Positions 7,713-35,284 of a stretch of 64,000 bases of DNA are shown in pieces; position 1 is the stretch's first letter; every line of letters starts with the position of its first letter. The stretch covers positions 434,001 to 498,000 of the forward strand of contig NZ_JACSCY010000001.1 of assembly GCF_014333615.1 (NCBI RefSeq), written 5' to 3'. The stretch comes from Hymenobacter citatus. Its GTDB lineage: Bacteria > Bacteroidota > Bacteroidia > Cytophagales > Hymenobacteraceae. A program made the position numbers and the translations under genes. The notes under the pieces are model-generated. The model ran no database searches, had not been told where the DNA came from, and was given only the letters and a program-made list of their open reading frames with translations.

Positions 7713-7990
7713 GTGCTTAAAATTCAGAGGATAAACAAAGAGGTAAGCCGGTTACTGCTGGGCTCGCCGGCGACTTGTGCTGTATACGCAAAAACTTTTG
7801 CGAAGATGATATATTGTGCTATTCCGAGAAAGGAGGTTTGCGTTGGGCAGTTGGTTGCCAGCAATAATAGTAGGAAAATTGAATATCTATAGACACGCTA
7901 ATTCTGACTAATGATGCACTCGCTCTTGACCAGCGGGTATGCTATTCGCGTTGTACCTTACGCCTCGTTTTGTTTTGGCTTTTGAACTTT

Positions 7991-9754
7991 GTGAGTAAAC
8001 GCATTTACTACTTGTGTTGCCAGTTGCTGCTAGGGGTAGGCGTATGGTTGCCCTCCACAAGTAAAGCACAGGCACCTACTGCCCATTATTGGGTGCAGCT
8101 ACGCGATAAAAAAGGTGTTGATTTCAACCCCAAGGCCTATTTCGCCCCAGCGGCACTGGCCCGGCGCGCGCGTCAGCACCTGCCCGCCTCCGATAGCACC
8201 GACTACCCTGTGCGCCCGGCCTACCTGCGTGCCATCTCCGCCTCTACCGACTCGGTGGCCCTGGTGAGTCGGTGGCTGAATGGGGTAGTGTGCTGGGCTA
8301 CGCCGGCCCAGGCGCAGGCCCTGCGCCGGCTGCCCGGCGTGCGTAGTGTGGTACCATTGCCAGAGCGTCGGGCGCAACTAGCAGCGCGCCCTACAGCAGC
8401 CGCAGAAGCGTCCATGCAGATTTCGACCGCCAACCGTCAGTTAGCCCGTCGTCAGACGGAGAGCCTGGGCGCGGTGCAGCTCCGTCGGGCCCACCTCAAC
8501 GGTCGGGGCTTGCGCATTGCCATCTTCGACGCGGGCTTCAACGGGGTAGACAGCCACCCGGCGTTTGAGCACCTACGCAGCGAGAAGCGCATTGTGGCGA
8601 CGTATGATTTTCTCAAACGTCAGCCCAACGTATACCACGGCGCCAACCACGGCGGCGAGGTGCTATCCTGTGTAGCAGGTGCCCTACCCGATGGCAGCTA
8701 CCTCGGCCTGGCCCCCGGCGCTGAGTTCTTGCTAGCGCGCACCGAGCAGATGTTTCGGGAGCGATATGCTGAGGAAGAGGCCTGGCTGGCCGCTGCCGAG
8801 TGGGCCGACCGCCAGGGCGTCGACATCATTAATTCGTCGCTGGGCTACACCAACCGCCGCTACTTTCCGGAGCAGATGAACGGCCGCACCAGTCTGATTG
8901 CCCGCGCCGCCGAAATGGCAGCCCGCAAAGGCATCTTGGTGGTGAATGCCGCCGGCAACGACGGCGAGGACGAGGACTGGCGCACCATTGGCACTCCTGC
9001 CGATGGCGACTCCGTGCTAACTGTGGGCGGGCTCGACCCCGACACGTACTTGCACAGCGACTTTAGTAGCTACGGCCCCGGTGCTGGTAGGCGGTTGAAG
9101 CCCAACGTGGTAGCTTTCGGCACGGCTCTGGTGGCTGCACCCGGCGGCTACGAGCGTATTGAAGGTACCTCATTTGCCAGTCCGCTGATGGTAGGCCTGG
9201 CGGCGTGTGTGTGGCAGCAGCAGCGTCAGCTTACAGCCATGGAGGTATTCCGGAAGTTGGAGAAGGCAGGGGAGTTGTATCCGTATTATGACTATGCCCA
9301 CGGCTACGGCCGACCACAAATTGCAAACTTGCTGGCGCCGTCTGGCCTAGTGGCCATACCGGCGCCTACCTTTGACTTTGTGCGCCGCGATACGATGGTG
9401 GCCGTTGTTATTCGGGAAGCTGCGGCTACTATACCGGCCCGCACGCTGCCGCTCTACGCCGATTCGGTGCGGGCCGTGACGCCGGCCTCGCGCTCCAACG
9501 AGGTGCCCGCTTTAGGAAAGGAGTCGACTGTGCCTACCCCCGAGGTACCCGCTGAAGAGGAACCCGTACTCCAGGAGCCACCGCGCTACCTGTATTGGCA
9601 CATTGCCAACCGCCGGGGCGTGCTGCGCCGCTATGAGGTGCGCGACGTGACCCAGCGGGCCGTGCTGGAAGTGCCCCTGCGCCTATTGCAGCCCGGCGAT
9701 GTGCTGCGCGTGCATTATCGGGGCTTTACGCAAACCTATACTGCTGCCCCATGA
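7991..9754 (+). CDS. Secreted subtilisin-like serine protease (S8)
   Basis: 587 residues. There is no ATG at the 5' end; GTG 7991 is chosen because it starts a good signal peptide ('SKRIYYLCCQLLLGVGVWL' ending near 'SKAQA'). TTG 7970 is the alternative. The catalytic triad is Asp180 ('IAIFDAGFNG'), His220 ('NHGGEVLS') and Ser394 ('GTSFASP'), with the oxyanion Asn323 ('AAGN'). A prodomain of about 120 residues precedes it, and about 130 residues, including a Pro/Glu-rich stretch, follow. No T9SS sorting domain is visible, so a periplasmic location or general export is likelier. Its stop overlaps the next gene's start (ATGA). Confidence 0.88.
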   Translation: MSKRIYYLCCQLLLGVGVWLPSTSKAQAPTAHYWVQLRDKKGVDFNPKAYFAPAALARRARQHLPASDSTDYPVRPAYLRAISASTDSVALVSRWLNGVVCWATPAQAQALRRLPGVRSVVPLPERRAQLAARPTAAAEASMQISTANRQLARRQTESLGAVQLRRAHLNGRGLRIAIFDAGFNGVDSHPAFEHLRSEKRIVATYDFLKRQPNVYHGANHGGEVLSCVAGALPDGSYLGLAPGAEFLLARTEQMFRERYAEEEAWLAAAEWADRQGVDIINSSLGYTNRRYFPEQMNGRTSLIARAAEMAARKGILVVNAAGNDGEDEDWRTIGTPADGDSVLTVGGLDPDTYLHSDFSSYGPGAGRRLKPNVVAFGTALVAAPGGYERIEGTSFASPLMVGLAACVWQQQRQLTAMEVFRKLEKAGELYPYYDYAHGYGRPQIANLLAPSGLVAIPAPTFDFVRRDTMVAVVIREAAATIPARTLPLYADSVRAVTPASRSNEVPALGKESTVPTPEVPAEEEPVLQEPPRYLYWHIANRRGVLRRYEVRDVTQRAVLEVPLRLLQPGDVLRVHYRGFTQTYTAAP

Positions 9755-33470: not shown

Positions 33471-33962
33471 TTATAGCGCCGTGCCAGGTTTTAGGCGGTG
33501 CCAGTAGTGGGAGCGACCCAGCAGCGAAAAGCCAATGTAGCCCTTCACCTCCAGCCGGTCGCGCGACTCCATGCGCAGGTAGCAGGAGTAGTAGTGGCCG
33601 CTGTGCGGATCGTAGATTTCGCCGTCTTCCCAGCGGCCCGAGTCGGGATTGTAGCGCATTTTATACAGCACCACCAGATTCTGAAGCGGGCGGGTGCGCA
33701 GCGTAGGGTTGGGGTTGCGGCCGTCGAGGTGGGGCTGACCGGTTTTGGGGTCAATAGCGTGGTGCATCCAGATCAAGCGGCCCGTCAGCTCGCCGTCGTG
33801 CACGCTCACTTCCACACGGGCCTCGCCCGAGTCGTCTTCCCACAGGCCCACCGGCGACAGCGCCTGCGCGTGGCCCGCTAGCGGTAGCAACATGCCCAGG
33901 CAGAACAGCCAGATACAAACTATAGGAAGGGCACTGGCAGTGGGGCGGGCGGGCATGGGCAT
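33471..33962 (-). CDS. DUF2147-family exported protein (paralogue 1)
   Basis: 163 residues with a signal peptide ending 'AGHAQ'. DUF2147 features: 'SPVGLWEDDSGEARVEV', 'IDPKTGQPHLDGRNPNP', 'WEDGEIYDPHSGHYYSC' and 'LEVKGYIGFSLLGRSHYW'. The family is periplasmic and of unknown function. It is 131 bases downstream of a second copy (34094-34537) that shares all these motifs, so the two arose by tandem duplication. Confidence 0.88.
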   Translation of the reverse strand: MPMPARPTASALPIVCIWLFCLGMLLPLAGHAQALSPVGLWEDDSGEARVEVSVHDGELTGRLIWMHHAIDPKTGQPHLDGRNPNPTLRTRPLQNLVVLYKMRYNPDSGRWEDGEIYDPHSGHYYSCYLRMESRDRLEVKGYIGFSLLGRSHYWHRLKPGTAL

Positions 33963-34093
33963 AGGCGCAGGGAAACAAACTGGATACGAGAGGAAGGGGA
34001 GCGTGGCTACGCCAGGGCAGTAACCGCCTGAATATAAATAAAAACAGCGGCGCTCCGCTCGGAACGCCGCTGCTCACTAAATAAGTTCGGCTA

Positions 34094-34537
34094 TTACTTT
34101 ACCCGCGTCCAGGTCTGCGAGCGACCAATCAGCGAAAAGCCAATATAACCCTTCACTTCCATGGTATTGGCGTTCAGCATTTTGATATAGCAGGAGTACG
34201 TTTTACCGCTCTCGGGGTCGTAGATTTTACCATCGTCCCACTTGTTGTCCGAGTCGTACTCGAAGCCCTGCATAAATACCATGCCCAGGCGGGGGCGGCT
34301 GCGCAGCTTGGGATCGGGATTGGGCGTATCGGTTTTAGGCTTACCGGTTTTGGGGTCGTTGGGCACAGCCAGCGACACGATTTTGCCGCACAGCTTGCTC
34401 CCATCGCACTTATAGATTTCAAATTGCGCTTTTTTATCGGCATCGGTCCAGGTGCCCAATGGCGAGAGACTCTGGGCCGCAGCAATTTTTGTGAAACCCA
34501 GCAGCATTGCCAGGCAGAGAAACAACATTTTTTTCAT
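34094..34537 (-). CDS. DUF2147-family exported protein (paralogue 2)
   Basis: 147 residues. ATG 34537 starts a signal peptide (MKKMLFLCLAMLLGF...AAAQ); the TTG-started extension to 34615 is not signal-like. It has the same motif order as its neighbour: 'SPLGTWTDADKKAQFEI', 'NDPKTGKPKTDTPNP', 'WDDGKIYDPESGKTYSC', 'MEVKGYIGFSLIGRSQTW'. It is more lysine-rich than paralogue 1, and has a Cys pair 'CDGSKLC' that paralogue 1 lacks. Confidence 0.88.
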   Translation of the reverse strand: MKKMLFLCLAMLLGFTKIAAAQSLSPLGTWTDADKKAQFEIYKCDGSKLCGKIVSLAVPNDPKTGKPKTDTPNPDPKLRSRPRLGMVFMQGFEYDSDNKWDDGKIYDPESGKTYSCYIKMLNANTMEVKGYIGFSLIGRSQTWTRVK

Positions 34538-34762
34538 GGTGATAAGAGAGAGAGTGGGTTTGAGGAAAAGATAGGGGAAAACCGCGAAATGGTCAAAGCA
34601 GCCAAGTGCAACCAAACCGCGTTAGAATACCATAACCAAAATGCAAACATAGCGCCAGCTTGCCAATCAGACGATAGCAAAAAGAAAGACACTTTTTTTC
34701 TGAAAAAAACTCGCTGATGCTCAGGTTGCTAGCTCCAGGGGGTAAAATAGTAGGGTTTTTAT
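34538..34762. other. AT-richer gap upstream of DUF2147 and of the 34763 promoter
   Basis: The stretch includes the 5' region of the DUF2147 gene on the minus strand and leads into the promoter on the plus strand. I see no ORF or strong hairpin in it. Confidence 0.4.
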
Positions 34763-34792
34763 TTTGAACCATCCGAAGGGCTTTTAACTTTA
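34763..34792 (+). promoter_or_regulatory. Near-consensus Bacteroidota promoter
   Basis: TTTG (34763-34766), an 18-base spacer, then TAACTTTA (34785-34792) closely match -33 TTTG / -7 TAnnTTTG. It points toward the short ORF at 34891; transcription would begin near 34798, giving a leader of about 90 bases. Confidence 0.6.
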
Positions 34793-34890
34793 CAAACCAG
34801 TAGCGAGTGCTACAGCCCTGTTCAAGCAGCCCTAAGGTGCTGGGCCGCGCGAGCAACGGTTATGTCGAACGTAAAGAAAGGAGGTACAAA

Positions 34891-34962
34891 ATGTCTAGTA
34901 GTCCCAACCAAATCCTGCCGAGCCTGTCGAATGTAGTCCGCATCACCGCCGGACGCGCGTAA
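34891..34962 (+). CDS. Possible 23-residue peptide with perfect Shine-Dalgarno
   Basis: ATG 34891 is preceded at 34878-34885 by AAGGAGGT, full complementarity to the usual anti-Shine-Dalgarno, with a 5-base spacing. The ORF runs 'MSSSPNQILPSL...TAGRA' to TAA at 34960-34962. Strong Shine-Dalgarno sequences are unusual in Bacteroidota; ribosomal protein bS21 genes are the well-known exception. The peptide is not bS21 and I recognise no family. A promoter lies upstream and a structured tail with a terminator downstream, so it is either a small-protein gene, a leader peptide or part of a regulatory RNA. Confidence 0.45.
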   Translation: MSSSPNQILPSLSNVVRITAGRA

Positions 34963-35088
34963 CAACAGCTTTTCGCGCGGAGCACTTGTTAGCCCAACAG
35001 GGCGTGCTCCCGCATTCTGGCAAGGTCTTATCTCACGGATGGCGGGGCTGTACCCCAGACCCGTCGCTTGGTAAGATTTGAAGGATTA

Positions 35089-35146
35089 GATGCCCGGTAT
35101 TGCCCAGCAGCCTTTCAGTAGGCCTGCACAGGCAGTACCGGGCATC
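35089..35146 (+). terminator. Terminator-like hairpin of the small transcript
   Basis: The arms GATGCCCGGTATTGCC and GGCAGTACCGGGCATC pair over 16 bp with one G-T pair around a 26-base loop that can itself fold. GCTGTTTTA follows. Confidence 0.65.
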
Positions 35147-35155
35147 GCTGTTTTA

Positions 35156-35284
35156 TAATGGTGAGTAGTGAGATGGTGAAATGGTGAGTTTGACGTTCTC
35201 ACTGTACTAAAGGCGCAGTCTGCGCAAGTGGCGCCATCAGAACGTCAAACTCACCATTTCACCATCTCACTACTCACCACTATT
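35156..35284. repeat. Family C inverted repeat (ATGGTGAG ... CTCACCAT)
   Basis: The outer arms pair over more than 40 bp with one mismatch (left TAATGGTGAGTAGTGAGATG to GTTTGACGTTCT, right its complement to 35282) around a loop of about 40 bases. It fills the gap to the NlpC/P60 stop codon, which it directly abuts. The arm words ATGGTGAGATGGTGAAATGG are shared with the left flank at 6699-6727. Confidence 0.92.

Follow-up and report, generated by a model that had tools for sequence, protein, structure and literature searches.

Within the window, the 64,000-nucleotide stretch of Hymenobacter citatus DNA analysed here, the + strand between positions 34763 and 35155 reads as a standalone transcription unit whose parts are collected in Table 1. 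Promoter, leader, Shine-Dalgarno (SD) sequence, 23-codon open reading frame (ORF), structured stretch, and terminator all lie where a preliminary description of the locus had placed them. That description also reported a perfect SD five bases before the ATG, and this is borne out: AAGGAGGT occupies 34878–34885, the ATG at 34891 follows five bases further on, and the SD is longer still, extending to the 11 nt of AGAAAGGAGGT. The ORF ends with a TAA stop codon and is followed by ~125 bases of structured sequence. Transcription probably starts near 34799, so that the unit's promoter is predicted to yield an RNA of ~350 nt running from ~34799 to 35154.

Table 1. Features of the unit in window coordinates.
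Feature	Position	Strand	Remarks
Promoter	34763–34792	+	TTTG 34763–34766, 18-nt spacer, TAACTTTA 34785–34792; Bacteroidota type
5′ terminal hairpin GUAGC-GAGU-GCUAC	34800–34813	+	5/5 pairs with compensatory double changes, 26 diverse sequences
Second leader hairpin	34816–34859	+	Main stem: double changes at 8/10 pairs, genus-level alignment, n = 64
Leader motif UUAUGUC, core AUGU	34860–34866	+	AUGU invariant, 26 diverse sequences
Extended SD AGAAAGGAGGT (11 nt)	34875–34885	+	Complement of the 16S 3′ tail
23-codon ORF, MSSSPNQILPSLSNVVRITAGRA	34891–34962	+	Codon-position bias; frame, start, and stop maintained from genus to genus
Long-range closing helix, 5′ arm	34899–34904	+	Partner 35083–35088; UAGUCC with GGAUUA
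Long-range helix in ORF, 5′ arm	34909–34923	+	Partner 35066–35080; 8/10 pairs with double compensatory changes
Hairpin in ORF codons 16–22 (GUCCGC...GCCGGAC)	34936–34954	+	Stem-pair exchange, n = 64
3′ element GCUUGGUAAGAUUUGAAGGAUUA	35066–35088	+	3′ arms of the long-range helices
Intrinsic terminator	35089–35154	+	Hairpin 35089–35146, U run (TTTT) 35151–35154

The unit had been thought to fill a space between opposing genes. Both flanking genes lie on the minus strand, the upstream one diverging from the unit and the downstream one converging on it, so they oppose the unit and not each other. We take the upstream neighbour to be a DUF2147-like gene and the downstream neighbour to be NlpC/P60-like, as read from their sequences; directly upstream of the unit, two adjacent paralogous genes for DUF2147-like secreted proteins occupy 33471–34615 of the minus strand. 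Just past the terminator, at 35163–35276, lies a long near-perfect inverted repeat (GTGAGTAGTGAGATGGTGAAATGG...). Similar palindromes stand behind the copies at L075 and L076 and are absent from most other members read, so the repeat is probably a MITE/REP-like element.

The leader carries further detail. The loop of its second hairpin includes UAAGGUGCU in many lineages. The word AUGUC occurs twice between 34863 and 34895, once at the start codon and once upstream of the SD, where its AUGU is the invariant core listed in Table 1. No conserved reading frame begins at the upstream AUGUC: an overlapping ORF from this position is present in the genus and, when the sequences are read by eye, is lost across genera.

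Distribution and conservation of the unit

A BLAST search with a 408-base query region matched all genomes of a genus sample of 37, its own included, with one other genome at 98% identity and the rest at 77–85%. In most of them the match starts at the promoter and stops slightly beyond the terminator, and in 37/37 conservation begins at the promoter and stops at the terminator. AAAGAAAGGAGGTAC and ATGTC are unchanged in all 37, the ORF has exactly 23 codons in each, and several stems carry compensatory changes. The promoter is kept throughout the 37-genome alignment, and a Bacteroidota-type promoter pattern stands upstream of the unit in 49 of the 58 members tested.

The first distant relatives came from a pattern search, and a scan of named sequences gave matches in Pontibacter, Chryseolinea, Parachryseolinea, Dawidia, Xanthocytophaga, and Cyclobacteriaceae/Cytophagales MAGs. 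A covariance model, R1, built from 26 sequences, carries the family well beyond the genus. It finds exactly one copy per genome in 79/79 Hymenobacteraceae genomes sampled, one copy in each of seven of the eight genomes of family f5 (the genome without a copy is 72% complete), and a single copy in each of families f17 and f20; elsewhere in the order, ~300 genomes gave none. Outside the order, a search of the wider class with the same model recovered copies in family f23, and probably also in f51, with the same layout. A match in genome G221 (L175, E = 0.004) was judged to be chance, as it has neither start codon nor terminator context. The three f23 copies (L256, L257, L258) have 19-residue peptides with the same SD and layout and quite unlike the Cytophagales peptide; two of the three share a CSNC motif (MSCSNCNLINFITINAYRR, MLCSNCSLTKFFTINAPRR).

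Outside the family, neighbouring genes change from one lineage to the next and mostly lie on the strand opposite the unit. This variation argues against a role in cis and indicates that the unit acts alone.

The unit is both a coding gene and a structured RNA

Substitution patterns show coding constraint on the ORF. Among 64 sequences drawn from two related genera, the unit's own included, parsimony assigns 22, 12, and 40 substitutions to codon positions 1, 2, and 3, and codons 1–15 alone show the same bias (6/5/23). Across members, 59 distinct peptides of 19–23 residues are all open, and over the same span the +1 and +2 frames contain stops in 47/59 and 59/59 sequences, respectively. The peptide set was filtered on length; 31 genuine covariance-model matches fetched without that filter all contain the ORF, those starting with GTG being identified by eye. 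Start codons are ATG in 79 cases and GTG in 6, with GTG replacing ATG at the same position in two lineages; all three stop codons are in use, and serine codons alternate between TCN and AGT. The N-terminal motif MS(S/N)P..(I/V)L is widely kept across the Cytophagales, and the first codons are nearly invariant across genera, wobble positions included. The second half of the peptide is poorly conserved between families and wholly different in other orders. The ORF is presumably translated.

The RNA is conserved in structure as well, with clear covariation. The transcript folds with z = −4.9 against shuffled sequences. In the genus-level consensus, the 5′ strand of a long, multi-branched hairpin (34899–35088) contains the ORF, and the terminator comes directly after this hairpin. 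The helix joining ORF codons 6–10 to the 3′ element was scored in the 26 diverse sequences, where the closing helix UAGUCC/GGAUUA is 100% paired and mostly invariant. Taken as a whole, the long-range structure has 97.9% of its cells paired, and sliding the partner strand destroys the pairing. The covariation score of the long-range structure was reached by none of 500 shuffles, and the same holds for the 5′ hairpin (0/500). Inside the ORF, one stem pair of the codon 16–22 hairpin exchanges between C-G, A-U, and U-A, with a double change in 33 of 64 sequences and no broken pair. The terminator stem shows double changes at 7/14 pairs, and among the members inspected, AGGAUU leads into a hairpin with a U run.

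Two further candidate features were rejected. The segment GGATTAGATACCC, which resembles 16S rRNA, is actually terminator stem and varies along with its partner. A pseudoknot between GGUAC of the SD and a GUACC loop is unsupported: the SD is constant, yet the loop takes other forms (GCUGAACC, GCUGCACC).

Database searches returned nothing for the unit. All 4227 Rfam families were run against the window at the gathering score and none matched; at relaxed thresholds, applied to the window region and to divergent members, miRNA, Phe-leader, and sRNA models matched far below gathering. The sole Rfam match above gathering is a separate cobalamin riboswitch near one member, at 1191–1417 of L256 (family f23), just downstream of that unit's copy. 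ARAGORN and Rfam detected no tRNA or tmRNA in the window, and the 23-residue peptide matched no entry in Pfam or NCBIfam.

The unit thus belongs to a real, uncatalogued, and dually constrained small gene/RNA family. The preliminary description had proposed conservation in relatives as one check, with synonymous substitutions pointing to a coding gene and covariation without ORF conservation pointing to an RNA. Conservation from promoter to terminator holds throughout the genus sample and, by covariance model, reaches beyond it. Coding signal and covariation were both found, and with both constraints present the unit is a tiny gene and a structured RNA at once. The suggestion that another type of gene, besides rpsU, has an extended SD gains support from the coding conservation of the ORF. 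The alternative of an RNA regulator is also partly right, in that the RNA has a covarying structure, and the earlier interpretation as a whole is partly supported.

Complementarity to the 16S tail and a possible link to bS21

Genomes of the genus and of its relatives have GGATCACCTCCTTTCT at the 3′ end of 16S rRNA. AGAAAGGAGGT is an 11-nt perfect complement of ACCTCCTTTCT, the end of the 16S as read in close relatives. The duplex of SD and 16S tail has a predicted energy of −17.6 kcal/mol, and none of 50 window genes reaches −12 or below. Invariance of the SD among the 26 seed sequences is partly circular, as these were mostly gathered by patterns containing the SD; less biased in this respect are the BLAST set, where the extended SD is intact in 37/37 genus genomes, and the divergent covariance-model set, where it is intact in 27/31. 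Weakened SDs occur in a few members (L156, L160, L170, L174). By partition function, the SD is only slightly more accessible than average (0.39 unpaired versus 0.35). A second exact AGAAAGGAGGT occurs on the + strand at window positions 7827–7837, within the intergenic stretch that precedes a protease-like gene (7970–9754); it has no ATG close behind and is probably there by chance.

In the Bacteroidia, bS21, bS18, and bS6 sequester the 16S tail, SDs generally go unrecognised, and ribosomes without bS21 initiate preferentially on extended SDs (PMC9976891). The gene for bS21, rpsU, is the only one known in the class to need such an SD; in Flavobacterium johnsoniae an obvious SD is found on rpsU only, and control by bS21-less ribosomes is held to be limited to rpsU autoregulation (PMC9976891). 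By the extended-SD criterion, ~80% of Cytophagales are without rpsU autoregulation (PMC9976891).

In the genome studied here, rpsU lies elsewhere, without an SD, and its bS21 product keeps Tyr54, the residue mutated in the PMC9976891 study. A strong SD on rpsU is found in 0/32 unit-bearing genomes versus 6/36 without the unit (p = 0.026, ancestry ignored), and many lineages have neither the unit nor an rpsU SD. This distribution is weakly suggestive of mutual exclusion between the unit and the rpsU SD. Pairing of the unit with rpsU mRNA, the one target tried, shows no excess over shuffles (mean z +0.20). Taken with the 11-nt complementarity and the published behaviour of extended SDs (PMC9976891), the weak exclusion suggests that the unit is linked to ribosome state through bS21.

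Proposed mode of action and alternatives

Our main reading, to which we give a probability of roughly one half, is that the unit is a small structured mRNA translated by ribosomes with an exposed anti-SD, namely bS21-deficient ones, and that it serves as a regulator responsive to ribosome state. The 5′ hairpin would cap the ~350-nt RNA, and the 11-nt SD would recruit to the leader those 30S subunits whose 16S tail is exposed. Because the tail is normally tucked away by bS21, bS18, and bS6, efficient initiation should need ribosomes with an exposed tail, for example subunits without bS21. The start codon sits at the mouth of the long hairpin, with the ORF as its 5′ strand and the 3′ end of the RNA as the other, and translation would melt this ORF-3′ pairing. 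A ribosome translating the ORF must open the hairpin, so the state of the ribosome would be reported both by peptide output and by the structure of the RNA. The downstream effect may be a regulatory peptide or the freeing of the 3′ element. We regard as tentative, and as somewhat doubtful in its full form, the stricter proposal of a trans-acting sensor of ribosome composition, in which only bS21-less 30S subunits translate the ORF and the peptide or opened 3′ element controls ribosome homeostasis where rpsU is without an extended SD.

An ordinary small-protein gene is an unlikely alternative that still deserves weight. Here the peptide itself would do the work, the SD would secure high expression, and the structure would stabilise the mRNA or tune its translation, with no link to ribosome state. 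The coding constraint, the widely kept N-terminal motif, and the strong, conserved promoter all fit such a gene. However, sequestration of the anti-SD generally keeps SDs in this class from being recognised (PMC9976891), and a strong SD would therefore not be expected to raise expression by itself. The near-invariance of the first codons, wobble included, together with the drift of the C-terminal half, points instead to a constraint at the RNA level.

Rather improbable is a non-coding, ribosome-binding RNA with an incidental ORF, one that would use its SD to pair with exposed 16S tails and so sequester or mark defective 30S subunits. The extensive covarying structure and the near-invariance of the SD and its flanks agree with it, as do the unusually stable complexes that extended-SD rpsU mRNA forms even without initiator tRNA (PMC9976891). 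Against an incidental ORF stand the frame kept open in all 59 distinct sequences, the exchange of ATG and GTG, the use of three stop codons, and the third-position bias.

The hok-type type I toxin mRNAs combine a small ORF with back-folding of the mRNA's 3′ end onto the translated region. The unit resembles them in its tiny ORF, its presumed mRNA stability, and its long-range 5′-3′ folding, with the 3′ end folded back on the ORF, and we nevertheless hold a toxin of this kind to be very improbable. The window peptide is not hydrophobic (mean hydropathy 0.12) and has no membrane segment. Opposite-strand promoter-like matches occur in 7/58 members, at differing places and in none of the genus, so there is no consistent antisense promoter. 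Moreover, the unit is single-copy and family-universal rather than scattered, and a search of plasmids and viral contigs found none. Least credible of all is a leader or attenuator of a neighbouring gene, suggested by the unit's resemblance to leader-peptide attenuators, where hairpins and a terminator come after a short ORF; the next gene in the window is convergent, and neighbours elsewhere vary by lineage and are usually on the other strand.

The RNA family and the small protein family are both absent from the curated libraries searched (Rfam, Pfam, NCBIfam). Single-copy and family-wide, the unit is a second gene with an equally extended SD, unrelated to bS21, in a class credited until now with essentially one such gene. 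If the bS21 reading is true, rpsU is not the only client of specialised ribosomes, and the unit offers a ready-made natural reporter of ribosome state.

Among known systems, 6S RNA (RF00013) shares with the unit a long hairpin-like fold and the size class of small stable RNAs; it differs in that the unit has a conserved coding ORF and no Rfam match, and a search of the unit's own genome with RF00013 gave none. Dual-function small RNAs such as SgrS/SgrT and RNAIII combine a tiny ORF with conserved structure under their own promoter and terminator. The unit has the same combination, including coding selection on the ORF and a covarying RNA structure, and differs in that its ORF forms one arm of the main helix and that it matches no Rfam family. 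Closest in its SD is the extended-SD rpsU mRNA of Flavobacteriales (PMC9976891). The unit differs from it in encoding a 20–23-residue peptide unrelated to bS21, in being standalone and heavily structured with ORF-3′ pairing, and in occurring where rpsU has no SD. The two share a short spacing to the start codon within an SD-avoiding class and an SD that complements the far 3′ tail of 16S rRNA over ~11 nt; the extended-SD class is defined by more than 8 nt of pairing with this tail before the start codon, and the unit pairs over 11.
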